DNA of 64,000 bases from Sphingomonas sp. SCN 67-18. GTDB lineage: Bacteria; Pseudomonadota; Alphaproteobacteria; Sphingomonadales; Sphingomonadaceae. Where the stretch lies: the NCBI RefSeq assembly GCF_001724715.1, contig NZ_MEFG01000017.1:74273-138272 (forward strand), read 5' to 3'. The notes under the pieces were generated by a model that did no database searches, had not been told where the DNA came from, and worked only from the letters and a program-made list of their open reading frames with translations. The translations under genes were made by a program, and so were the position numbers. Within the stretch, counting starts at the first letter, position 1; each line of letters starts with the position of its first letter. Of this stretch, positions 1-42,122 are shown in pieces.

Positions 1-1198
1 AATCCGCGCACAGCCGCCGCACCAGCCGCTGGGCGATCACCGCGCGCAGCGTCGATGCGAGCAGAAAAGGCTCCACCTTCATGTCGCGCATCCGCGTTAT
101 CGCGCCCACCGCATCGTTGGTGTGGACGGTAGACAGCACCAGATGCCCGGTCAGCGACGCCTGCACCGCGATTTCCGCCGTCTCCCGGTCGCGAATCTCG
201 CCGATCATCACCACGTCCGGGTCCTGCCGCAAAATGGCGCGCAGCCCGGCGGCGAAGCTCAACCCCACCTTGGCGTTCACCTGCGTCTGGCCCACGCCGT
301 CAATGGCATATTCCACCGGGTCCTCGACGGTCAGTATGTTCCGCCGCCCGTCGTTCAACAGCCGCAGCCCGCCATAAAGCGTCGTCGTCTTGCCGGATCC
401 GGTCGGCCCGGTGACGAGGATGATGCCATTTGGCTCCGCCAGCGCGTCGGTCAGCAGCGCGTGAACCGCCGGGTCCATGCCCAGCGCATCCAGCCCGATG
501 CCCGCATTGTCCTTGTCCAATATGCGCAGCACCACCCGCTCGCCCGCCCGGCTGGGCAGAGTGGAGGCGCGCACGTCGAGCAGCTTGCCGCCCAGCGTCA
601 GGCCGATCCGCCCGTCCTGCGGCACCCGCCGCTCGGCAATGTCCAGCCGCGCCATCACCTTGATCCGGCTGACCAGCACCGGCGCGACATGCGGCGGCAT
701 CCGCAGCGTCTCGCTCAACACCCCGTCGATCCGCATCCGCACCACCAGCCCGCTCTCATATGGCTCGATATGGATGTCGGACACGCCATGGCGCACCGCG
801 TCGGCGATGATGCCGTTGATCAGGCGGATGGCCGGCGCGTCGTCCGCCGAATCCAGCAGGTCGTCGGCGGTGGGCATGTCACCCGCGATCATCGCCAGAT
901 CATCGCCCAGCCCCAGCGATCCGGCGGCCATCGCGGCGGCCTGGCCGTCCATCGCATAGCCTTCGGAAAGCAGCCGGTCGAACGCCGCCGGGGCCACCCG
1001 GTCCACGGCCAGCGGCCCGCCCAGAAATCGCCGCGCCTCGACCAGCACCTGCGGGTCAGCGCCCTCGCGCAGCGCCAGCGCGAACCGCCCGTCCCGCTCG
1101 CCGAGCATCACGATGCCATGCCTGCGCGCAAAGCCATAGGGGATGGCGGGCGGCCGGACCGCCTCGTCCGGCCCCTCCGCCTCGCGCGCGGTCGTCAC
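1..1198 (-). CDS. gspE: Type II secretion ATPase GspE, 3' end beyond the window
   Basis: This is the cytoplasmic ATPase that powers the type II secretion pseudopilus. Translating the minus strand from the GTG at 1198 gives about 399 residues. They include an N-terminal GspE/PilB-type domain, a Walker A motif GPTGSGKTTT near residue 264, the Asp box and a Walker B-like MIGEIRDRETA. The frame leaves the window just as the RRLC of the expected zinc tetracysteine region begins, so the C-terminal quarter is missing only because of the window edge. The GTG start overlaps the gspD stop as GTGA, which indicates translational coupling. The family is certain. Telling GspE from PilB rests on the neighbouring gspD and gspC. 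Confidence 0.95.
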   Translation of the reverse strand, partial: MTTAREAEGPDEAVRPPAIPYGFARRHGIVMLGERDGRFALALREGADPQVLVEARRFLGGPLAVDRVAPAAFDRLLSEGYAMDGQAAAMAAGSLGLGDDLAMIAGDMPTADDLLDSADDAPAIRLINGIIADAVRHGVSDIHIEPYESGLVVRMRIDGVLSETLRMPPHVAPVLVSRIKVMARLDIAERRVPQDGRIGLTLGGKLLDVRASTLPSRAGERVVLRILDKDNAGIGLDALGMDPAVHALLTDALAEPNGIILVTGPTGSGKTTTLYGGLRLLNDGRRNILTVEDPVEYAIDGVGQTQVNAKVGLSFAAGLRAILRQDPDVVMIGEIRDRETAEIAVQASLTGHLVLSTVHTNDAVGAITRMRDMKVEPFLLASTLRAVIAQRLVRRLCAD

Positions 1199-3321
1199 GG
1201 CTGCGGCTCGCTGGGCGGCACGTCCACCGGCTTCACGGTGATGGTCGATCTGCGCACCTCGGGAACCACCATCTGCGGCGCGGCGGCGGGCGCGGCCTCG
1301 GGCGCGGGCAGCACGGGCGCCGCACCCATATAGTCACGGACAAGCTCGTCCAGGCTCGGCTCGCTGTCCGGGTGCTGCAGCAACTGCTGGTCGCGGACAT
1401 AGCCGTAGCGCCGCTCGGCCAGCTTGCGGGCATCCTCGGCGGTGCGCAGGATTGTGGGGCGGATGAACACCATCAGGTTGGTCTTCTGCCGCGCCCGCGC
1501 GCGGGACTGGAACAGCCGCCCGATCGCCGGAATATCGCCCAGCAGCGGGATCTTCTCGATGGTGCGCCGCTCATTGTCGTCCAGCAGCCCGCCCAGCGCG
1601 ATGATCTGGCCGTCATCCACCGTCACCGTCGTCTCTATCTCGCGCTTGTTGAGGATCAGCTCGCTATTGTCGTTGGAAACCGGCCCGGCGATGGAGCTTA
1701 CCTCCTGGCGCAGGAACAGCTTCACCGATCCGCCGGCGTTGATCTGCGGCTTCACCTCCAGCTGGATGCCGACATTCTGGCGCTGCACGGTGCGGAAGGC
1801 ATTGTCGAAATTGCCCGACAAGGCTTGCCCGGTGGTGATCGGGATTTCCTGCCCGACAAGGATTTTCGCTTCCTTGTTGTCGAGCGTGGTGATCGACGGG
1901 GTGGACAGGATGTTGGACTTGTTGTCGGACCGCACGGCGTTGATGATCGCGCCGAACACGCCATTGTCGCCGATCCGCGTGGCATAGCCGCCCAGCGCGC
2001 CGGATGCGGAGAGGATGGAATTGACCGCCGCCTGCGCCAGCGTGTCGCTGACCCCGTTGTTGGTGGTGGTCGTGGTGGTGTTGCCGTTCACCGTGGTCGT
2101 CGTGGTGTTCAGCTCGCGCGCGCCGATCGCCCCGGCAATGGTCAGGATGTTGGGTGCGACGTTGGAATAGTTGGTCGCCGCAAAGGGAATGCCGTCTCCG
2201 GCCAGCAAAAACTGCACGCCCAGCTTCTTCGCCGCCGTGTCGGATATCTCGACGATGATCGCCTCGACCAGCACCTGCTCGCGCCGCTGGTCGAGCTGGC
2301 GGACCACCTCGCCCAGCGTGCGCTGCACGTCGGCGCTGGCCGCGATGATGATCGCATTCGCCCCTTCATAACGGGTGACGATGGCGCCGTTGCGCCCCGG
2401 CGTGGCGACCATGGCGGCGGGCGGGGGCGCGGCCGGCGCATTGCCGCCCGCCGCCTGCGCGCCGGCGGGAGCCGCCGATTGCCCGGTCAGTTGCTGCAAC
2501 ACCGGCAGCATCATCTCGGCATCGGCATGTTGCAGCCAGATCACCCTGATCTCGGTGCCGCTCGCCGCCCGCTTGTCCAGGTCCTGCGCCACCTCCGCCA
2601 GCCGCGCCACGGTGGCGGCATCGCCACGCAGCGCGATGGAATTGGAACTGTCTATCGCCACCACGGACACCGTGCTCGCGGCGGGCGCGCCGCCCTGTCC
2701 GCCGCCCGCGCCCGCGCCGGCCAGCTGCTGGAGCGATTCCGCAATCTCGCGCGCGCCGGCATTGCGCAGCGCCACCACCCGCGTCGCCGCGCTGTCCTGA
2801 TCGATCCGGCGGATCACCTCGCGCACCCGGCGGACATTGTCGCCGAAATCGACGATCACCAGCGAATTGCCGGCCTTGTTCGCGGTCACGGATCCTTCGC
2901 GGCTCACCAGCGGCCGCACCGTCTCCGCCGCCGAAGTCGCGTCGATGGCGCGCAGCCGGAAAATCTCCGTCACCAGGCTGTTCTGCCCGGCCGCCCCGCC
3001 CACCCGGCTGGGCTGCGACGCCGCGCCGTCAATCGGCTGGACACGAAACGCGCCGCCCGCGGTCGGAATGGCGACCAGCCCGTTGGCGCGCAGCGTGGAA
3101 AGAAACACCTCAAAATATTCGGATCGGGACAATGGCCGGTCCGTCACGACAGACACCTTGCCCTGCACCCGCTGGTCGATGATGAAGCTGCGCCCCGTCA
3201 CCCGCGCCGCATCCTGGATGAAGGCGCGGATGTCCGCGTCGCGCACGTTCAGCGTCTGCTGCGCGCCGCCGGGCGCGGCCAACGCCAGCGCCAGCGCCAT
3301 GCCAAGGACCGCGCGCCTCAC
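1195..3321 (-). CDS. gspD: Type II secretion outer-membrane secretin GspD
   Basis: This is the outer-membrane secretin channel of the type II secretion system. The 708-residue protein has a Sec signal peptide (ALALALAAPGGAQ). It continues with an N0 domain beginning TLNVRDADIRAFIQDAARVT, then repeated N1-N3 modules with the usual INxADARxxA-like pattern, and a secretin domain ending around residue 640 (LGGLLDDNERRTIEKIPLLGDIP). A Thr/Asn-rich loop near residues 405-425 (runs of TTTT and NGNTTTT) lies in the secretin domain. The last 70 residues are Ala/Pro-rich and may form the S-domain or a pilotin-binding tail. Both ends overlap neighbours by 4 bp, so gspC-gspD-gspE is one transcription unit. 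Confidence 0.97.
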   Translation of the reverse strand: MRRAVLGMALALALAAPGGAQQTLNVRDADIRAFIQDAARVTGRSFIIDQRVQGKVSVVTDRPLSRSEYFEVFLSTLRANGLVAIPTAGGAFRVQPIDGAASQPSRVGGAAGQNSLVTEIFRLRAIDATSAAETVRPLVSREGSVTANKAGNSLVIVDFGDNVRRVREVIRRIDQDSAATRVVALRNAGAREIAESLQQLAGAGAGGGQGGAPAASTVSVVAIDSSNSIALRGDAATVARLAEVAQDLDKRAASGTEIRVIWLQHADAEMMLPVLQQLTGQSAAPAGAQAAGGNAPAAPPPAAMVATPGRNGAIVTRYEGANAIIIAASADVQRTLGEVVRQLDQRREQVLVEAIIVEISDTAAKKLGVQFLLAGDGIPFAATNYSNVAPNILTIAGAIGARELNTTTTTVNGNTTTTTTNNGVSDTLAQAAVNSILSASGALGGYATRIGDNGVFGAIINAVRSDNKSNILSTPSITTLDNKEAKILVGQEIPITTGQALSGNFDNAFRTVQRQNVGIQLEVKPQINAGGSVKLFLRQEVSSIAGPVSNDNSELILNKREIETTVTVDDGQIIALGGLLDDNERRTIEKIPLLGDIPAIGRLFQSRARARQKTNLMVFIRPTILRTAEDARKLAERRYGYVRDQQLLQHPDSEPSLDELVRDYMGAAPVLPAPEAAPAAAPQMVVPEVRRSTITVKPVDVPPSEPQP

Positions 3322-4172
3322 TGGCCGGCCACCCGGATCGCGATCGGCACGACGTCTGATCCGCGTTCCACGCTGACGCCGATATTGCCGCCGCCGGAAA
3401 GGCTCGCCGCAATCCGTTGCAGATCGTCCTCCGCCGTCACCGGCCGTCCGTTCACCGCGGTGATCACGTCGCCCTCGCGAAACCCGGCGACGCGGAAGGC
3501 CTCGCCCGATCCCTGCGCCCTGACGGTGAAGCCCGTCGTCCGCCCGCCCGCCATGCGCGGCATGAAGGCAATGCCGGACTGGATCTGCGCGGCGGTCAGC
3601 GCCGCGGCCCCGGCCGCCGGCGGCGCGGCGCCGTCCAGGCTGGCGTCCACCGCGCCGTCATTGGCGGGCGCGGGCGCCGCCGGCACCGGGCCGGACTGGT
3701 CGATGAACAGGGTTTCCTCCACGTCGCCGCGCAGGATGGTCGCGCTGTCAAATGCCACGGCTTTCAATGTCACCCCCGGAAGAATCGTGTCGCCGACCGC
3801 ATAGCTGGCCTGCACCATGTCGGGCCCGGCGATGATCGCCGATCCCCTGCCCGTCGCCTCGTTCATCCGCACGCCATATAGCGTCAGCGGCAAGGCCGTG
3901 ACCACCGCCGATCCATCCCCGCCCTGCAGCCGAAAAAAGGGATCGAAGCCGGTCAGCGCGGCCGCCCGCGCCTGCGCCGCGCCGCCCGGCGAATCGGCCC
4001 CGCCCCACACGCCCAGCGGCCCGATGGGCGTGACGACCGCCCAGAACAGCCGGGCGATCTGGACGGCCAGCGCCGCGAGAAGAATATATTGAACGATGGC
4101 ATAGCCATCCGCACGCGGTCGGCGACGCCAGAGCCGCCATGCACGCGGATCGAGAACCAGACGCATCGTCAA
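3318..4172 (-). CDS. gspC: Type II secretion inner-membrane protein GspC with PDZ domain
   Basis: This inner-membrane platform protein links GspD to the cytoplasmic complex. The 284-residue protein has one transmembrane helix at about residues 24-46 (AIVQYILLAALAVQIARLFW). A homology region follows (LTLYGVRMNEATGRGSAII), then an Ala/Pro-rich linker near 160-180 and a C-terminal PDZ domain from about 200 (VAGFREGDVITAVNGRPV). A second in-frame ATG lies two codons in, so the exact start is uncertain by 6 bp. It is the first gene of the gspCDE run, and its promoter must lie in 4173-4306, which it shares divergently with the oxygenase gene. Confidence 0.9.
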   Translation of the reverse strand: MTMRLVLDPRAWRLWRRRPRADGYAIVQYILLAALAVQIARLFWAVVTPIGPLGVWGGADSPGGAAQARAAALTGFDPFFRLQGGDGSAVVTALPLTLYGVRMNEATGRGSAIIAGPDMVQASYAVGDTILPGVTLKAVAFDSATILRGDVEETLFIDQSGPVPAAPAPANDGAVDASLDGAAPPAAGAAALTAAQIQSGIAFMPRMAGGRTTGFTVRAQGSGEAFRVAGFREGDVITAVNGRPVTAEDDLQRIAASLSGGGNIGVSVERGSDVVPIAIRVAGQ

Positions 4173-4306
4173 AACACCCCTACCGCGAGAACCGCTAGGA
4201 GCCGATTGTTACAATCCGGAGTCACTTTTGTGACGATAAAATTTCAACTCGATGAAATCCCGCTCCGCGCTTGACGGAGGCGGGAAGATTTGGCCACCAG
4301 ACCGGC
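4173..4306. promoter_or_regulatory. Divergent promoter region with two short dyads
   Basis: This 134-bp gap separates gspC (minus) from the oxygenase gene (plus). It is more AT-rich than its surroundings and holds two perfect dyads: GTCAC-TTTT-GTGAC at 4221-4234, and ATTTCA with TGAAAT at 4241-4258. Either could be an operator or simply a weak stem. No convincing -35/-10 pair or Pho box was found here. The call rests on position and symmetry only. Confidence 0.35.
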
Positions 4307-4939
4307 ATGAGCGAGATCGATAGCATAGTCACCCAGACCCTGTTGAGCCATGCCGGCGTGCAAAAAGTGCCCAGCCCGAAGCTGGACCTGTTCATCCGCC
4401 GCGCATTCCTGAACGCGGAGGAATGCGCCGGCATCGTCGCCCGCATCGACGCGCAGCGCAGACCCTCCACCGTCTCGGATTTCAACGGCGACACCGCCTT
4501 CCGCACCAGCGAGACCTGCGATCTCGACGGGGCCGATCCGCTCGTCTCCGCCGTCAACGACCGCATCATCGCGCTTACCGGGCTGGACACGCTGCATGGC
4601 GAGCCGATGCAGGGGCAACGCTATGCCGTCGGCCAGGAATTCAAGGCGCATACCGATTATTTCGAGCCGGACGGCGTCGATTACGACACTTATTGCAGCG
4701 TCGCCGGCCAGCGCACCTGGACGGTGATGATCTACCTGAACGAACCGGGCGCGGGCGGCGCCACCCGGTTCAAGGCCATCGACAAGATGGTCCAGCCCGA
4801 AACCGGCAAGCTGCTCGCGTGGAACAACCGCCGGCCCGACGACACGCCCAATCCCTCCACCCTGCATCACGGCATGAAGGTGCGGGCCGGCACCAAATAT
4901 GTCATCACCAAATGGTTCAGGGAACGCCGCTGGGGCTGA
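4307..4939 (+). CDS. 2-oxoglutarate/Fe(II) oxygenase, prolyl 4-hydroxylase-like
   Basis: This is a soluble dioxygenase of the prolyl 4-hydroxylase alpha-subunit family, predicted to hydroxylate a peptidyl residue using Fe(II), 2-oxoglutarate and O2. The iron ligands can be read as HTD (in FKAHTDYFEP) and a distal His (LHHGMKVRAGTKYVITKWFR). The following Lys in TKYVITKW is the usual 2-oxoglutarate contact. There is no signal peptide, so it acts in the cytoplasm. The ATG at 4307 gives 210 residues. An in-frame TTG at 4271 would add 12 residues, and the GGAGG at 4276 is far from either start. It sits opposite to and between gspC and the TonB receptor, ending 9 bp from the receptor's stop. Its substrate is unknown. 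Confidence 0.88.
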   Translation: MSEIDSIVTQTLLSHAGVQKVPSPKLDLFIRRAFLNAEECAGIVARIDAQRRPSTVSDFNGDTAFRTSETCDLDGADPLVSAVNDRIIALTGLDTLHGEPMQGQRYAVGQEFKAHTDYFEPDGVDYDTYCSVAGQRTWTVMIYLNEPGAGGATRFKAIDKMVQPETGKLLAWNNRRPDDTPNPSTLHHGMKVRAGTKYVITKWFRERRWG

Positions 4940-4948
4940 ACCCGCCGG

Positions 4949-7657
4949 TCAGAACTTGATGCTGGCGCCCAGCGAAAAGCTTGTCCCGACATTGTAGAGG
5001 TTGGTGTGGATGCGCCGGTTGGCGCCCTGCTGGAACTCGCGATAGCCGCGCCCGGTGATGTTGCGGACCTCGAACTTGATCTCCGCCTCGCCGCCGAACA
5101 GCGACACCCCCTCGCGCGCCACGAAATCGAGCCGCAGGCCGGGATCCTCCACGATATCGGGCTGCTGCACGTCGCCCTGGCGGGGGCCGCGGCTGGTCAC
5201 CCGCTTGCTCGCATAGGTGAGCATGAAGGTCTGCTGCGACAGCCTGTCCTCATCCTCCAGGCCGATCTGGACGTTGGCGATATGGTCCGACTGGCCGGTC
5301 AGCGGATCACCGTTGTTGAACAGCGAAGACGCCGCCAGCGTCGCCCCGAACGGATCGACCACCGTGTCACCGGCCCCCACCTTCAGTTCGGACTTGGAGT
5401 AGGTGTAGTTCGCCACCAGCACCAACCGCCGCGTCGTAAAGAAGGCCGCGTCGGAAACATTGCCCAGCGGGAAATATTTCAGCAGCTCCACCTCGCCGCC
5501 ATAAAGCCGGGCGGACGGCGCGTTCGCAAAGCTGGTCTGCAACTGCCCGCCGCCGGCAAGGAAGCCGAAAGCCTCGATGGGGTTGTCGATTTTCTTGTAG
5601 AAGCCCGCGACGGACAGGCGCTGGCCACGGTCGAAATAATATTCATAGCGCGCCTCGGCGTTGAACAGCTCGCTGTCGTTCAAATTCGGGTTGCCGAAGA
5701 ACTGCCGGTCGGATTCATAATCCTGGTAAAGCTGCAAGGCCATTTCGCGGAATTGCGGCCGCGCGATGGTCTTGGACGCGTGCAGGCGCAGCTGCATGTC
5801 CTCTGCGAAGTTCCAGGTCAGCGTCGCGGCGGGCAGCCAGTAATCGTTCGCCAGGCTGCGTCCGGTGAAGGGCGTGTCGCCGAACAGGTTGACCGGCGTC
5901 ACCGACTGGCTGGCATCCTCATAACGCACGCCCACCGATCCGCGCAGCAGCGGCACGATCTCGCCCTCCACCTGCGCATAGCCGCCATGCACGCGCAGCC
6001 CGGCCTTGTAAGCACCCGCGCCATTGGTGGCGTCGTTCGGCGTCACCTCGCGCAGCTGGATGTTGTAGGTGTAGATATTGTAATCGGACAGCAGATAGTC
6101 CGGCCGCTCCTGCGCCACCGCCAGGTTCAGCGCGCCGTCCGGGCGGAAGAACTGGAAATCCCGCCGCACGGAGGTGCGCCTGGTGTCGCCATAGCTGTAG
6201 CCCGCGCTGACCACGATCTCGCGGTCCGCCGGCACGTTCCACGCCAGGTCGATCGCGCCCGCATAGACATTCTCGTTCAGGTCGCTGAACGCAATGTCCG
6301 CGCTCTGCCCGCCGGCGCTCAGATTATTGACGTAATCCTGCGCCGTGCCCGCGTCGTAAACATAGCTGAAGCTGCGCTCATAGGGCGATTCCCGCTGCGA
6401 ATTGGCGTAGGTGCCGCGCAGGTTGACCCCCACGTCGCCGAACTTGAACTCGCCGACCAGTTGGGTGTCGATCAACTGCCGTTCGAACCAGTATGTCTTC
6501 TGCTTCAACACCGGCGGCGTGCCGAGGAAATCGGGGCTGTCGACCGGGTCCGCGCCCGGCACGTTGGTGTCGTATCCGGCGGAAAGCTGCGCCTGCTTCA
6601 ACGTGTCGCGGATATACAGGTTGGTCCAGCGGATCTTGTGGTCGCCAAATTCAGCGCCAAGGCCAAGCAGGCCGTTCACCACGATGCGGTTGTCGGTCGA
6701 TACGGTGCGGAAATCCTGGCCGATCGAATCCGCGCCGTTGGACACCTGCTGGCGCGCGTCCTTGGTGCGCCAGCTGTTGGAATATCCGGCGGCCGCGATC
6801 AGCCCCAGCCGCATGTCGCCCGCGTCGATCACCTTGCCGATGCTGAAATCGCCGGAGGCATTGGCCGGAATGTCGCCGTTGCGCTGCAACAGGCTGGTCG
6901 GCGCATTGACGAGGCTGGCGGTGAAGCCCTGGATCGTCCGGGTATCGAAGGTCTCGCCTTCGACGATGCGGTTGCCGCCCGCCATCGCCGCGCGCAAGGC
7001 GGAGGGAACGTCACGGGTGCCGTTGTCGAACCCGGTCCAGTCGGTGCGGCTGCCGAAATAGGTATAGCCCAGCTTGCCGGTCGTCTCGCTGTCCCCGCTC
7101 GCGCCAATGCCCACGGAAACGAAGGACTGGTCGGGAATGGCCTTGGTGATCAGGTCGATCACGCCGCCGCCGAATTCGCCGGGGTAACGGGCGGAATAGC
7201 TTTTCTGCACCACCGCCGATTCCAGGATGCTGGTCGGAAATATGTCCAGCGGCACCACCCGCTTCAGCGGCTCGGGCGACGGCAATGGCGATCCGTTGAG
7301 CAGCGCCAGCGAATAGCGGTCGCCAAGCCCGCGCACATACACATAGCCGCTGCCGACCACGCTCAGCCCGGTCACGCGCCCCAGCGCCCCGGCAATGTCC
7401 CCCTCGCCGGTCCGCGCGATCTCCCCGGCGGACAGCACGGACACCACTTCGGGCGTGGCGCGGATCGCATCGGGAATGTTCTTGCCGATCACGACGATGT
7501 CGGCGGCGTCATCCACGGCCGCGTCGGCGGCGTCGGCCGCATCGGCGGTCGCGGCGGCGGCGGTCAGCACCGGCGCGGCCGTCTGGGCCAGCGCGGCGGG
7601 CGAAACCAGCGCCGTGGAAATAAGGAGAACACCCCCCAGGGTGAGCGAATGCGTCAT
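4949..7657 (-). CDS. TonB-dependent outer-membrane receptor
   Basis: This is an outer-membrane beta-barrel that uses TonB energy to import, or possibly to act on, a specific ligand. The 902-residue protein has a signal peptide (LLISTALVSPAALAQ) and a short Ala/Asp repeat spacer. A TonB box-like DIVVIG follows, then a plug domain (RATPEVVSVLSAGEIARTGE, FGGGVIDLITKAIP). The long barrel ends in the aromatic C-terminus FSLGASIKF expected of BAM substrates. No STN domain is visible, so it is not a typical anti-sigma-coupled transducer. AGGGA lies at ribosome-binding distance. It lies 83 bp downstream of the lipoprotein gene on the same strand, so the two probably form an operon. The ligand is not identifiable. 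A phosphate-containing substrate is suggested only by context. Confidence 0.95.
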   Translation of the reverse strand: MTHSLTLGGVLLISTALVSPAALAQTAAPVLTAAAATADAADAADAAVDDAADIVVIGKNIPDAIRATPEVVSVLSAGEIARTGEGDIAGALGRVTGLSVVGSGYVYVRGLGDRYSLALLNGSPLPSPEPLKRVVPLDIFPTSILESAVVQKSYSARYPGEFGGGVIDLITKAIPDQSFVSVGIGASGDSETTGKLGYTYFGSRTDWTGFDNGTRDVPSALRAAMAGGNRIVEGETFDTRTIQGFTASLVNAPTSLLQRNGDIPANASGDFSIGKVIDAGDMRLGLIAAAGYSNSWRTKDARQQVSNGADSIGQDFRTVSTDNRIVVNGLLGLGAEFGDHKIRWTNLYIRDTLKQAQLSAGYDTNVPGADPVDSPDFLGTPPVLKQKTYWFERQLIDTQLVGEFKFGDVGVNLRGTYANSQRESPYERSFSYVYDAGTAQDYVNNLSAGGQSADIAFSDLNENVYAGAIDLAWNVPADREIVVSAGYSYGDTRRTSVRRDFQFFRPDGALNLAVAQERPDYLLSDYNIYTYNIQLREVTPNDATNGAGAYKAGLRVHGGYAQVEGEIVPLLRGSVGVRYEDASQSVTPVNLFGDTPFTGRSLANDYWLPAATLTWNFAEDMQLRLHASKTIARPQFREMALQLYQDYESDRQFFGNPNLNDSELFNAEARYEYYFDRGQRLSVAGFYKKIDNPIEAFGFLAGGGQLQTSFANAPSARLYGGEVELLKYFPLGNVSDAAFFTTRRLVLVANYTYSKSELKVGAGDTVVDPFGATLAASSLFNNGDPLTGQSDHIANVQIGLEDEDRLSQQTFMLTYASKRVTSRGPRQGDVQQPDIVEDPGLRLDFVAREGVSLFGGEAEIKFEVRNITGRGYREFQQGANRRIHTNLYNVGTSFSLGASIKF

Positions 7658-7689
7658 GACGGATCCCTGTTCATCGCTTGAATTATGAA

Positions 7690-7727
7690 GCGGCGGGGGC
7701 GTGGCGCGTCGCCGCCGCCCCCGCCGC
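7690..7727 (-). terminator. Strong intercistronic hairpin
   Basis: GCGGCGGGGGC (7690-7700) and GCCCCCGCCGC (7717-7727) form a perfect 11-bp GC-only stem with a 16-nt loop, between the lipoprotein stop and the TonB receptor start. On the minus strand no T-tract follows. It is therefore more likely a partial terminator or mRNA-stabilising element that lowers receptor expression relative to the lipoprotein than a full stop. Confidence 0.5.
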
Positions 7728-7740
7728 GATTGTCAGAGGA

Positions 7741-9273
7741 TCAGGCCCCAGCCGGCAGCGCCGTGCAGAGGTTGCCGCTGCCGAACGACACGTAGCTCGC
7801 GTCGCAGGTCCAGCCCCGATACCAGGTGTCGTTGGCGTCCCGCACCGCGCCGATATAGGTGGTCGGCACGAAGAAGGAGCTGAGCGTGGAGGCGTCGAAA
7901 GCCTGCACGGCCGTCTCGTTGGCGCCGTTCACGAACACGCCGGTCAGGGTCGACGTACCGGCGGCGACATTGTTGGTGCCGGCGTTGAAGATCGCCTGCA
8001 GCTGCGCACCGGTGATGTTGCCGTCGTCGTTGAACGGTCCGGCGGCGCAGGAGAAGAAGACAGATCGGAACACCGGCACGCCGGCCTCGTCCGTCCCCGC
8101 CGTCTGCACGGTCGCCGCGCCGTCGATGTCCAGGCAGTAACGCTGGCTGGTCACCACGCCGTTGACCAGCGTGTAATCGGTGCCGCCGCGCAGCAGGATG
8201 GCGTTGTCCACGCCCGCCACCGTGCTGCGGTGGACGAAGGTGAAGTTCGCCAGCCGGGTGTTCTGGCGCGGCGTCGCGTCCTCGTTGCCGTTCGAATCGG
8301 CCTCGATCATCGTGTCGCCGGAGCTTGCGCCACGCTGGACGGAGATGAGGAACTGGATGAAGCCCTTATAGCCGAAATCGGTGTCGAGGCCGTCATCGTC
8401 CGCGCCGCTGATCACCAGATGGCTCACATTCTGCCGGCCGCCGAAAAATTCCACGCCGTCGTCGGAACTGTTGTGGATCTGGAGATGGTCGATCACGGTG
8501 CCGCTGCCGACGCCGCCGGTGGTCAGGCCCTGCAGCTCGTTGCCGGGCGCGATGGCGAAACCGGAATAGCGGATCTGGACGTAACGCAGCGTGCCGCTGT
8601 TGTCGTTGGCGATCGCGCCGCCGTACAGCGCGTTGGTGGTGCCTTCCACCTGCTGCTGGCAGCCCGCGGTGCCGCCCACCGCGCCGGCAAGGCAGTCGCT
8701 GATCGGCGCACGGCCCAGCAGCACGACGCCGCCCCACAGGCCCTGGCTGTTGTCGGTCACCGTGCCCAGAATGTTGTTGCGCGCGGTGAAGACGATCGGG
8801 TTGGTGGGCGATCCTTCCGCATTCAGGCGCGAACCGCGGTTGACGATGAGGAAGTCATTGCCCTGCGAGGCGAAGATCACCACGCCGGGGTCGATGGTCA
8901 TGGTGACGGAGGTGCCACCGGCGGCAGCGCCGTCGCCGCCCACGTCAGTGCCCACGTCGACGCGGCCGGACAGGGAATAGAGCACGCCCGGAATGCGGGC
9001 CAGCGCCAGGTTGCTGTTGATGCGGCCGCTCAGCTGGCACACCCGGCGCTCGCCGTTGACGCTCTGGATGGTGCCCGCATTGGTGGTGCCCGCCGGGCAG
9101 TCGGCGGGAACGGTGACCGTCGGGGTCGGCGTCGGCCCGGGCGTGGGCGCGGGGGTCGGCGTGGGCGCCGGGACGACGATCACGCCCTCGCCGGGCGAAG
9201 CGACGTCATCCGCGCCGCAGGCGGCGAGCGGAAGGGCGGCGCTGATCAGGAAAAGCGTGCGAATGCGCGACAT
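7741..9273 (-). CDS. Large lipoprotein with Pro/Thr linker, probable surface or secreted protein
   Basis: The ATG at 9273 follows AGGGGA and opens a lipoprotein signal peptide with lipobox LPLAAC (Cys at about residue 19), giving 510 residues. A Pro/Thr-rich linker near residues 30-50 (PAPTPTPAPTPGPTPTPT) leads to a body rich in Gly, Asn, Val and Ile with repeating turns (GVVIFASQGNDFLIVNRG), suggestive of a right-handed beta-helix. Four or more Cys residues in the body could form disulfides. An upstream in-frame extension to 9468 is ignored because it would bury the signal peptide. Its place next to a TonB receptor and gsp genes resembles the Caulobacter elpS locus, whose lipoprotein is exported by type II secretion under phosphate starvation. 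Homology to ElpS itself is not established here. Confidence 0.85.
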   Translation of the reverse strand: MSRIRTLFLISAALPLAACGADDVASPGEGVIVVPAPTPTPAPTPGPTPTPTVTVPADCPAGTTNAGTIQSVNGERRVCQLSGRINSNLALARIPGVLYSLSGRVDVGTDVGGDGAAAGGTSVTMTIDPGVVIFASQGNDFLIVNRGSRLNAEGSPTNPIVFTARNNILGTVTDNSQGLWGGVVLLGRAPISDCLAGAVGGTAGCQQQVEGTTNALYGGAIANDNSGTLRYVQIRYSGFAIAPGNELQGLTTGGVGSGTVIDHLQIHNSSDDGVEFFGGRQNVSHLVISGADDDGLDTDFGYKGFIQFLISVQRGASSGDTMIEADSNGNEDATPRQNTRLANFTFVHRSTVAGVDNAILLRGGTDYTLVNGVVTSQRYCLDIDGAATVQTAGTDEAGVPVFRSVFFSCAAGPFNDDGNITGAQLQAIFNAGTNNVAAGTSTLTGVFVNGANETAVQAFDASTLSSFFVPTTYIGAVRDANDTWYRGWTCDASYVSFGSGNLCTALPAGA

Positions 9274-9361
9274 CGAGAAATCCCCTGTGAGATACTGGTT
9301 CTGCGCCCATGCCGTCCTTGGCCGAGCTGCGATCCCGCCACGGATGGCCGATGATGCTTTC

Positions 9362-9390
9362 GTGACTCGTCCATGACGGTTGCATGACAG
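9362..9390 (-). promoter_or_regulatory. Pho box: three PhoB half-sites in phase
   Basis: Read on the minus strand, half-sites CTGTCAT (9390-9384), CCGTCAT (9379-9373) and GAGTCAC (9368-9362) repeat at exact 11-bp steps. The PhoB consensus is CTGTCAT direct repeats with 4-bp spacers. The first half-site is perfect, the second differs by one base, and the third is weaker. The array ends 88 bp before the lipoprotein start codon. A fourth CTGTCAT on the plus strand at 9401 forms an inverted repeat with the first, so the divergent MATE gene might also be affected. Confidence 0.65.
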
Positions 9391-9436
9391 CGGCGACGCC
9401 CTGTCATTTCGCGCATCTTGCGCTACACGCATCGCC

Positions 9437-10822
9437 ATGGGCGGCATCGCACGGGAAAGCGCAGGCACGGGGCTATGGCGCGCGGAGGCGCGGGCGACGA
9501 TCGCGCTCGCCTATCCGCTGGTGCTCACCAACATCGCCCAGGCGCTCATCCACGCGACGGACGTGGTGATGCTCGGCCGGGTCGGCGCGCGGGCGCTGGC
9601 GGCCGGGGCGCTGGGCGTGAACCTGTTCAACGCCTGCCTCATCTTCGGCGTCGGGCTGATGACCGCATCCGCGCCGATGATCGCCAGCGAGCTGGGCCGC
9701 CGCAGCCATTCGGTGCGCGACGTGCGCCGGACGGTGCGCCAGTCGCTCTGGGCGGCGTCCGCCATCGCCGTCCCCTTCTGGCTGCTGCTGTGGCACGCGG
9801 AGGAGATTCTCCGCCTGTTCGGGCAGGATCCCGGGCTCTCAGCGGAGGCCGCCCGCTTCACCCGCGCGATGATGTGGGGGCTGCTTCCCTATTTCGGCTA
9901 TGTCGTGCTGCGCTCCTTCGTCGCCGCGCTGGAGCGGCCGGGCTGGGCGCTGGCGATCGGCGCCGGGGCGGTCGTGATGAACGCCATGGTCAATTATGTG
10001 CTGATCTTCGGCGGGCTGGGCATCCCCGCGCTCGGCCTGCTCGGCGCGGGCATCGGCAGCGCCTTCACCAATGTCATGATGTTCATCGGCATGGCGGTGG
10101 TCGTCGCGCGGCACCGCCTGTTCCGCCGCTACCATCTGTTCGGCAATTTCTGGCGGGCGGACTGGCCGCGCTTCGCCCAGGTGCTCCGGCTCGGCGTGCC
10201 GATCGCCGTCACCCTGGCGCTGGAAGTGACCATCTTCAACGCCGCCGTGTTCCTGATGGGGCTGATCGGCACGGCGGAGCTCGCCGCCCACGCCATCGCC
10301 ATCCAGATCGCGTCGCTCGCCTTCATGGTGCCGCTCGGCATCTCGCAGGCGGCGACGGTGCGGGTCGGGCTCGCCTACGGCCAGGGCGACCGCGCCGCCA
10401 TCGGCCGCGCGGGGTGGACCAGCTTCACGCTGGGCACCGGCTTCATGCTGTTCACCGCAACGCTGCTGCTGTTCTGGCCGCGCACGCTGGTCGGCCTGTT
10501 CATCGACCTCAACGATCCCGCCAACGCCCATGTCGCCGCGCTCGCCGTCTCCTTCCTCGCCGTCGCGGCGCTGTTCCAGATCGTCGACGGCGCGCAATCC
10601 GTCGGCGCCGGCATGCTGCGCGGCCTGCACGACACCACCCTGCCCATGGTCTATGCCGCCGTCGGCTATTGGGTGATCGGGCTTGGCGTCGGCGTGCTGC
10701 TCGGCTTCCACGCGGGCTGGGGCGGCGTCGGCATCTGGGTGGGGCTTGCCAGCGGCCTCGCCGTCGTCTCGGTGCTCATGGTCACGCGCTGGATGCGGCG
10801 TGAACGGCTGGGCCTCGCCTGA
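9437..10822 (+). CDS. MATE family multidrug/toxin efflux transporter
   Basis: This inner-membrane cation-coupled antiporter exports drugs or metabolites. The 461-residue product from the ATG at 9437 has twelve hydrophobic helices in two similar halves. The characteristic early motif is present (LAYPLVLTNIAQALIHATDV, VMLGRVG), as is the second-half equivalent (ELAAHAIAIQIASLAFMVPL). In-frame codons back to 9380 are not needed for the fold. It is divergent from the Pho-boxed lipoprotein gene and codirectional with dinB, 42 bp downstream. The substrate cannot be inferred. Confidence 0.9.
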   Translation: MGGIARESAGTGLWRAEARATIALAYPLVLTNIAQALIHATDVVMLGRVGARALAAGALGVNLFNACLIFGVGLMTASAPMIASELGRRSHSVRDVRRTVRQSLWAASAIAVPFWLLLWHAEEILRLFGQDPGLSAEAARFTRAMMWGLLPYFGYVVLRSFVAALERPGWALAIGAGAVVMNAMVNYVLIFGGLGIPALGLLGAGIGSAFTNVMMFIGMAVVVARHRLFRRYHLFGNFWRADWPRFAQVLRLGVPIAVTLALEVTIFNAAVFLMGLIGTAELAAHAIAIQIASLAFMVPLGISQAATVRVGLAYGQGDRAAIGRAGWTSFTLGTGFMLFTATLLLFWPRTLVGLFIDLNDPANAHVAALAVSFLAVAALFQIVDGAQSVGAGMLRGLHDTTLPMVYAAVGYWVIGLGVGVLLGFHAGWGGVGIWVGLASGLAVVSVLMVTRWMRRERLGLA

Positions 10823-10864
10823 TCCCGCTTTGCCAGCGCCTAAGCTGCGGATAAACAGGCAGAC

Positions 10865-11962
10865 GTGGACGCCCCGCCTGCCCCGCCTCTGCGCAAGATC
10901 ATCCATATCGACATGGACGCCTTCTACGCATCCGTTGAACAGCGGGACGATCCGGCGCTGCGCGGCAGGCCGCTGGCGGTGGGCTATGCCGGGCCGCGCG
11001 GCGTGGTGGCGGCGGCCAGCTACGAGGCGCGCCGGTTCGGCGTGCGGTCCGCCATGGCGTCGTCGACCGCGCGGCGCAAATGCCCGGAACTCATCTTCGT
11101 GCCGCCGCGCTTCGACGCCTATCGCGCCGTCTCGCGGCAAATCCACGCCATTTTCGCGGATTTCACCAGCCTCATCGAGCCGCTCTCGCTGGACGAAGCC
11201 TATCTCGACGTGACCGGGGCCGACTCGGCCACCGATGTCGCCACCCGCATCCGCGCCCGCATCCGCGCCGAAACCGGCCTCACCGCCTCGGCCGGCGTCT
11301 CCTATAATAAATTCCTCGCCAAGATCGCGTCGGACCAGAACAAGCCGGACGGCCTGTGCGTCGTAACCCCGCGCCAGGGGGCGGCCTTCGCCGCCGCCCT
11401 GCCCGTCGCCCGCTTCCACGGCGTCGGGCCGAAGACGGCGGCGCGCATGGCGCAGCTCGGCATCCATGACGGCGCCCAGCTGCGTGATTATGATCTCGCC
11501 GCCCTCCACCAGCATTTCGGCAAGGCCGCCGCATATTATCACGCCGCCGCGCATGGCCATGACGACCGGCCGGTCAGGCCGGACCGAGAGCATAAATCGA
11601 TCAGCGCTGAACGGACCTTCGATGTCGATCTTATCCGCCCGGCCGATCTCATCGCCGCGCTTGAGCCGATTGCCGATGCCGCATGGGTGCGGGTCGAACG
11701 CTCCGGGCTGCACGGCCGCACCGTCACGCTCAAGGTCAAATATGCCGATTTCTCGATCATGACCCGGTCGCGCAGCTTCGCCGCCCCGGTCGCGGACCTC
11801 CGCGCCTTTTCGGATGCCGGCGCGGCGCTGATGAACGCGCTCTGCCCGGTGCCGCGCGGGGTCAGGCTGCTCGGTCTCGGCCTGTCCGCCTTCCACCATC
11901 CGGCGCAGGACGGCGCGCGCCAGCTCGGGCTGGCGCTGCCGCCTGTCACTGAACGGACATGA
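10865..11962 (+). CDS. dinB: DNA polymerase IV
   Basis: This is a Y-family translesion polymerase. The 365-residue protein starts at a GTG and shows the catalytic motifs HIDMDAFYASVEQRD (first Asp pair) and PLSLDEAYLDVT (Asp-Glu pair). It has the usual palm, fingers, helix-hairpin-helix thumb (FHGVGPKTAARMAQLG) and little-finger domain. The C-terminal QLGLAL resembles a weak beta-clamp-binding motif. No GTTC-N7-GTTC LexA box was found in the 42-bp gap upstream, so SOS control is not supported locally. Confidence 0.95.
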   Translation: MDAPPAPPLRKIIHIDMDAFYASVEQRDDPALRGRPLAVGYAGPRGVVAAASYEARRFGVRSAMASSTARRKCPELIFVPPRFDAYRAVSRQIHAIFADFTSLIEPLSLDEAYLDVTGADSATDVATRIRARIRAETGLTASAGVSYNKFLAKIASDQNKPDGLCVVTPRQGAAFAAALPVARFHGVGPKTAARMAQLGIHDGAQLRDYDLAALHQHFGKAAAYYHAAAHGHDDRPVRPDREHKSISAERTFDVDLIRPADLIAALEPIADAAWVRVERSGLHGRTVTLKVKYADFSIMTRSRSFAAPVADLRAFSDAGAALMNALCPVPRGVRLLGLGLSAFHHPAQDGARQLGLALPPVTERT

Positions 11963-41700: not shown

Positions 41701-42122
41701 GTTTTCCCCTTTGGGTGACCATCGTTCACCGCCGCAGTGCCATGCGTGTCGCTAAAATCCGGTTAATATCTCCGGTCCGGCATGGCGGGGCCTCCGGCGC
41801 GCCGCCGGGGATCCGGCACCCCCGCCACGGTGCGGACCGCCGCGAGAGCGGGTATCGACCTATAGAAATCGATTAAGATATATGAATTTCAAGGCTATTC
41901 TTTATCTGTGTAATATAATTTCACGTATTTTAATGATTAGGGATGAACATCATGCCCATCATGGCACATAGATGACATATATATTCTACATGGCAAATCA
42001 AATCGTTATCAAATCGCAACGAAAAAGATATTGCGGTTTTTAGCGCTTTCCGTAAGGGAAATTCGCCGATTCCCGCGCGGGCGGGGCTGGCGTTGGGCAA
42101 TTGATTATACTGTCGAGGCGAG
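41701..42122. promoter_or_regulatory. 422-bp divergent intergenic region, AT-rich in its second half
   Basis: The parA side contains TTAA-N7-TTAG at 41752-41766 on the minus strand, close to the CtrA consensus TTAA-N7-TTAA and about 50-65 bp upstream of parA. From 41860 to 42020 the DNA is clearly AT-rich compared with its neighbours. A 67-codon minus-strand frame there has unlikely composition. No toxin gene, RNA or clear repeat was found. Confidence 0.5.

Follow-up and report, generated by a model that had tools for sequence, protein, structure and literature searches.

Evidence for a PhoB-type operator before an ElpS-like lipoprotein gene of Sphingomonas, one of two in a conserved locus of the phosphate-starvation kind

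Which regulator controls the ElpS-like lipoprotein gene of Sphingomonas sp. SCN 67-18, and does its control extend to the TonB-dependent receptor and type II secretion genes that lie close to it? In the 64-kb stretch of DNA analysed here (the window), plus-strand positions 9362-9390 read gtgactcgtccatgacggttgcatgacag, which on the minus strand gives CTGTCAT gcaa CCGTCAT ggac GAGTCAC in exact 11-bp steps, 88 bp before the ATG of the lipoprotein gene (9273, minus strand). The Pho box consensus is CTGTCAT with an 11-bp repeat. An original prediction made from the sequence alone had described these three half-sites with their phasing and their distance from the lipoprotein gene, and all of this is confirmed in the sequence; the array, however, has four half-sites in phase rather than three, a degenerate GCATCAT at 9357-9351 having been overlooked. 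At least two CTGTCAT-like direct repeats in 11-bp steps and directed toward the gene, the arrangement by which PhoB-dependent promoters are recognised, are present. The features of this region are the following:

9384..9390, minus strand: Pho half-site 1, CTGTCAT, its GTCAT 46 bp before the -10-like position
9373..9379, minus strand: Pho half-site 2, CCGTCAT, 35 bp before the -10-like position
9362..9368, minus strand: Pho half-site 3, GAGTCAC, 24 bp before the -10-like position
9351..9357, minus strand: Pho half-site 4, degenerate, GCATCAT, in the 11-bp phase and 13 bp before the -10-like position
9338..9342, minus strand: -10-like position, CGTGG (3/5 letters of CCTAG), placed from the ladder distances of relatives and the local sequence
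7741..9273, minus strand: ElpS-like lipoprotein, 510 aa, with lipobox LAAC, Pro-Thr linker and predicted beta-helix

Half-site 3 fits CTGTCAY at five of seven positions and half-site 4 at four of seven, and one might see in the array a set of chance matches to a loose consensus. The two-half-site 18-bp consensus CTGTCATNNNNCTGTCAT, with up to three mismatches allowed, has 137 matches in the whole genome against 35 for a reversed-pattern control; the elpS array is one of two matches with a single mismatch, and one other genome site has none. For the three-half-site core GTCAY-N6-GTCAY-N6-GTCAY, with at most one mismatch, the 3.22-Mb genome holds four matches and the control pattern 0. Three of the four are exact, namely the elpS array, the pstS promoter and an antisense site beside a ribosomal-protein-S20-like gene (gene identities around these matches were read by eye), and the fourth is the elpS array one register on, with one mismatch, through which half-site 4 enters (matrix score 18.0). 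The matrix, 29 bp long, was trained on 23 pstS sites only, from the genome itself and from 22 loci; pstS was sought in the genomes of 22 of the 36 elpS loci described below and was present in 21 of the 22. Of the training sites 22 score at least 20, and that of L105 is weak, with 9.5. The elpS triple scores 26.8, whereas the background, 798,880 positions on the two strands of a 400-kb sample of the same genome, has a maximum of 22.8 and no position that reaches 26.8 (0/798,880); the same holds for dinucleotide shuffles of the 250 bp upstream of elpS (0/1000). Enrichment over random DNA, the check proposed with the original prediction, is thus found both in the whole-genome pattern searches and in the 400-kb matrix sample, and the claim survives it.

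A PhoB protein is encoded in the same genome: among 31 matches to TIGR02154, a single protein exceeds the curated cut-off (333.1 bits versus 296.2). Its gene is the last of a cluster that also codes for a histidine kinase, a PBP_like_2 protein, two permeases, an ABC ATPase and PhoU; as far as gene content tells, this is the phoR-pstSCAB-phoU-phoB cluster. The identity of pstS is based on its PBP_like_2 match (E 1.9e-46), the neighbouring genes and its place in the operon, and a search of the genome with TIGR00975 (PstS) gave no match. The sequence of the pstS promoter is TTGTCAT caaa GAGTCAC ggta ACGTCAC; the elpS array shares its motif with this classical PhoB target, in the same genome and in the same clade. 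The claimed match to the PhoB-binding pattern is borne out by the recurrence of this motif, which precedes pstS both in this genome and in relatives and is found upstream of the orthologues of elpS and gspC as well. An operator of this kind could nevertheless be read by a different OmpR/PhoB-family regulator that recognises GTCAY/GTAAY half-sites at 11-bp steps, of which a ChvI-type envelope-stress regulator is an example: the genome encodes 12 Trans_reg_C proteins, i.e. 11 besides PhoB, and GTAAC variants are present among the half-sites of relatives. Against it, a matrix from the promoters of pstS alone scores the elpS and gspC regions, and the homologous Caulobacter locus responds to phosphate and its type II secretion system (T2SS) to PhoB, according to the accessible parts of PMC2996285 and PMC11208175, respectively. 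We regard such a regulator as unlikely.

When named genomes were scanned, relatives of the lipoprotein turned up at 36 loci, of which 35 belong to named sphingomonads or erythrobacters and one to an unplaced alphaproteobacterial MAG. With the genome studied here counted, a relative occurs in 11 of 385 genomes drawn evenly from the class and in 34 of 59 close relatives. Within the 250 bp upstream of elpS, the pstS-trained matrix reaches p<=0.05 in 35/36 regions and p<=0.01 in 31/36, counts that are not independent trials because the sequences are kin. The 36 regions are those of 35 loci and the window, searched on both strands with 1000 dinucleotide shuffles each; L019, whose upstream region is cut off, was left out, and L043 was kept with an uncertain start. 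L037 fails (p 0.099), and L015, L016, L032 and L040 are marginal (0.015-0.045). The best match lies on the opposite strand in five of the 36 (L009, L021, L022, L023 and L030), where some of the signal may belong to a gene further upstream. A second draw, tested with 500 shuffles, gave p<=0.05 in 32/34 and p<=0.01 in 19/34, though the two draws are not independent, the second repeating at least four sequences of the first (L148, L155, L159 and L162). It covered 34 of 42 loci, with the window, three short N-terminal matches, one second domain and three sequences starting past residue 55 omitted; L135 and L144 fail, the latter kept though its start is misplaced. Compared with the rest of its own locus, the elpS upstream region is the top 250-bp segment in 23/35 cases and within the best five in 35/35, and the region upstream of the receptor gene, taken as a negative control, passes in 0/37 (300 shuffles). 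The boxes of relatives vary in distance from the start and in half-site number. Given the rarity in the genome, the empty background sample, the conservation and the clean negative control, the probability that the array is a product of chance appears close to nil.

A further question is which gene the array serves, since it lies within an intergenic region shared with a divergent MATE exporter gene; this gene, dinB and phoD lie upstream of elpS. The site could belong to MATE, or to MATE-dinB-phoD, rather than to the lipoprotein: CTGTCAT occurs also on the plus strand at 9402-9408, and phoD is a phosphatase gene. The half-sites point to the lipoprotein, however, their distances to the -10-like position of that strand are those of the ladder, and the box stays with elpS in relatives although MATE is found in one of their 36 loci and phoD in two; we hold this assignment to be very improbable. 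The neighbour counts across the 36 loci, which end about 6 kb downstream or earlier and in a few cases are cut short upstream, are 36/36 for the receptor, 17/36 for gspC downstream, 1 for MATE, 1 for dinB and 2 for phoD.

The nearby phoD had been proposed as part of the same module. With phoD near in only 2/36 loci, a few of them cut short upstream, its position is not conserved and is best regarded as incidental, and we have rejected it as a member. At the phoD reading frame, the pair CTGTCAC tgaa CGGACAT begins 16 bp ahead of the first ATG, with which it overlaps; the three-half-site matrix (score at least 9) has nothing there among its 20 best matches listed.

The arrays show a preferred spacing to a second element. 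When GTMAY cores are paired with C[CT]TA[GC] elements in the upstream regions of elpS, gspC and pstS, the distances cluster at 13, 24, 35, 46, 57 and 68, and 62 of 83 pairs of half-site and CCTAG-like element have the same phase of 11, as do 20 of 35 in the second draw. As the element is present in 24/36 elpS and 10/18 gspC regions but in only 5/23 pstS regions, it is chiefly the elpS and gspC regions that account for this 13+11n ladder. We take the CCTAG-like element to be a probable -10 region. A strict spacing requirement for PhoB-activated promoters is mentioned in the accessible text of PMC10294691, and the spacing of the ladder agrees with it; like the E. coli pho boxes treated there, which are strictly spaced to the promoter core, the arrays are tandem direct repeats before probable phosphate-starvation genes, with a spacing to the putative promoter core that is mostly in one phase. 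Unlike the E. coli boxes, the ladders are longer here (four half-sites, and five at gspC) and a CCTAG-like element stands at the presumed -10 position. The elpS half-sites of the window stand 46, 35, 24 and 13 from the matching position, the last being the commonest distance in relatives, but the element itself is degenerate there, CGTGG and not the CCTAG found before gspC, so the elpS promoter of this strain may be weaker or more activator-dependent. A sigma-70 promoter scan of 7500-9700 found none, a result that is uninformative for an activator-dependent promoter.

A second array stands before gspC. It holds the second and third best matches of the matrix in the window, and it had been overlooked in the original prediction:

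4208..4258, minus strand: Pho-type array before gspC, ATTTCAT, TTGAAAT, TCGTCAC, GTGACTC and TTGTAAC in 11-bp steps, matrix scores 20.7 and 19.3
4195..4199, minus strand: -10-like CCTAG, 8 bp past the last gspC half-site, with the same spacing in relatives
3318..4166, minus strand: gspC, first gene of the type II secretion cluster (T2SSC E 4.8e-18), with its ATG at 4166
1195..3321, minus strand: gspD secretin (TIGR02517, over cut-off)

Among relatives with gspC downstream of the receptor, the window included, the region before gspC reaches p<=0.05 in 15/18 and p<=0.01 in 13/18; L020, L021 and L032 fail, and five weak gspC matches upstream of elpS (L015, L022, L030, L034 and L044) were omitted. 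The gsp genes had been assigned to a phosphate module because they are adjacent. The array and its conservation support this as well, and with them the case for export as part of the proposed module is far better than it was from adjacency.

The remaining features of the locus are the following:

7655..7743, minus strand: intercistronic region with a GC-rich hairpin without U tract (-46.8 kcal/mol, z -4.5), not listed as terminator-like
4949..7657, minus strand: TonB-dependent receptor (plug and barrel, by profile match), presumed second gene of the operon, elpS-adjacent in 36/36 loci
4271..4939, plus strand (opposite to elpS): 2OG-Fe oxygenase

The lipoprotein reading frame is that of a 575-aa frame (7741..9468) minus its first 65 codons, which places the ATG at 9273. 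The receptor is adjacent to it in every locus and has no box of its own (0/37), which fits the operon that had been considered likely, and elpS and the receptor gene are probably co-transcribed. The hairpin between them could attenuate or stabilise the transcript rather than end it. The pair resembles those of the SusCD type, in which a lipoprotein gene adjoins the gene of an outer-membrane TonB transporter, as it does in all 36 loci here; SusD has a helical fold, whereas the lipoprotein of the window is a predicted beta-helix. The oxygenase is collagen-type prolyl 4-hydroxylase-like (nearest solved relative 3itq, E 6.3e-17), and such a gene lies directly downstream of the receptor in 13 of the 36 loci of relatives and at another place of the locus in two. 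Its product possibly modifies the Pro-Thr linker of the lipoprotein; long linkers occur also in loci where no prolyl-4-hydroxylase gene was seen.

The locus is of a kind that has been described in Caulobacter crescentus. There, according to the accessible text of PMC2996285, ElpS (cc0170) is a surface lipoprotein produced under phosphate starvation and released in a T2SS-dependent manner, and its gene adjoins the TonB receptor gene cc0171 and gspC-N, an order kept in Sphingomonas alaskensis. ElpS overproduction raises the phosphatase activity of the supernatant, and purified ElpS is without such activity (same source). The window has the same set, a lipobox lipoprotein with an adjacent TonB-dependent receptor and adjacent type II secretion genes, and it is this gene order, together with the statement on S. 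alaskensis, that links its lipoprotein to Cc0170 (PMC2996285, in the parts available). Unlike the order given in that text, the window has the prolyl-4-hydroxylase-like gene between receptor and gspC. Unlike its account of the locus, we find conserved Pho ladders before elpS and gspC: in its accessible text PMC2996285 describes no Pho box and mentions PhoB once, in the introduction. The same text calls the cc0171 receptor gene constitutive (data not shown there) and T2SS production constitutive as well, with gspE and gspL up 1.7-fold in poor medium; a constitutive receptor gene speaks against a strict operon. In the accessible part of PMC11208175, the PhoB regulon of Caulobacter includes the T2SS and several TonB receptors, and elpS itself is not named as a PhoB target. 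Among the open-access titles and abstract openings covered, none deals with a Pho box upstream of elpS or of gsp genes in a sphingomonad, and a Caulobacter box may well be published. As far as the literature searched goes, the new elements are the geometry of the ladder, its conservation among sphingomonads, the array before gspC and the predicted fold.

We conclude that the array before elpS is very probably the operator of a PhoB-activated promoter, with the elpS-receptor pair and the gsp genes under PhoB; motif, phasing and conservation give good support to a PhoB-type operator, with a second one in the same conserved locus, which is of a known phosphate-starvation kind. Under phosphate limitation, the PhoR-type kinase would phosphorylate PhoB, dimers of which would occupy the tandem 11-bp half-sites CTGTCAT, CCGTCAT, GAGTCAC and GCATCAT, the last ending 8 bp short of the -10 position. 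Bound PhoB would then recruit RNA polymerase, giving transcription of elpS and, by read-through, of the TonB-dependent receptor gene, and a second PhoB-type promoter with five half-sites would drive the gsp operon for type II secretion. From these genes would come a beta-helical lipoprotein at the surface, its cognate outer-membrane transporter beside it and an export machine for phosphate-scavenging enzymes. Such an arrangement offers a reason, at the level of the DNA, why the elpS-receptor-T2SS locus responds to phosphate, and a clade-specific Pho matrix combined with the geometry (13+11n from a CCTAG-like element) could serve to map the phosphate regulon of the sphingomonads, which are environmental bacteria.

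What the lipoprotein itself may do can be approached through its predicted structure. Its N-terminal signal ends in LAAC, with C19 invariant in 29 sequences, and Pfam and NCBIfam gave no match at E 0.001. The structural model (mean pLDDT 88.2) aligns in VIA-align with pectate lyases, alginate epimerases and phage tailspikes, with Z up to 22.2, rmsd 3.5 and 277 and 281 residues aligned, matches that speak for the fold class only and that we take to be of the right-handed parallel beta-helix class, which is the fold predicted for the lipoprotein. Foldseek with the same model gave no match at E<=0.001, and the lipoprotein profile has three weak matches among solved structures (best E 0.22). No phosphatase is among the best 50 structural matches of VIA-align or Foldseek, which proves nothing by itself; the beta-helix prediction agrees with ElpS not being a phosphatase, and the predicted fold would speak for surface binding or polymer handling instead. 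Two invariant acidic clusters, D271, D272 and E275, and D293, D294 and D297, lie 22 residues apart, about one rung of a beta-helix, and suggest a metal or substrate site. A fuller scheme, which we put forward as a speculation with little probability, is that beta-helical ElpS partners the receptor, captures a phosphate-bearing polymer or a metal-phosphate complex through this acidic ladder and hands it over, that the hydroxylase modifies the Pro-Thr linker, and that module and secretion machine are switched together by the two PhoB ladders. In more distant relatives (L138, L166-L171), the ElpS domain occurs twice in tandem in one frame of about 910-980 codons.

The genome has a second lipoprotein-receptor pair (L172, contig C14 of G000, 2148-6449 and 8153-11466), in which the lipoprotein is 75-76% identical and the receptor 61%. 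It lies about 1.7 kb from genes for a PBP_like_2 (PstS-like) protein, an arsH-like protein (FMN_red) and an arsenite-permease-like protein (SBF), the ars names being assigned by eye, and is possibly an arsenate/phosphate island; the box upstream of it is weak (p 0.022).

A few other sites of the genome carry related motifs. The exact three-half-site match on the strand opposite the ribosomal-protein-S20-like gene (L106 1499-1527, contig C15) has a matrix score of 17.1. The only perfect CTGTCATNNNNCTGTCAT of the genome stands 23 bp before a ParA-like ATPase gene (L053 1501-1518, contig C24); the three-half-site matrix gives this perfect CTGTCATCATCCTGTCAT a score of only 13.7. Within the window, the next best match outside the two arrays (41961-41989, minus strand, matrix 14.7) falls in an AT-rich stretch. 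At the L063 locus no three-half-site match was found, and the best matrix score is 3.3; there, CTGTCTTGTTCCCGTCAT stands at 1501-1518 (contig C43), 22 bp before an AMP nucleosidase gene. In E. coli, amn is PhoB-controlled.
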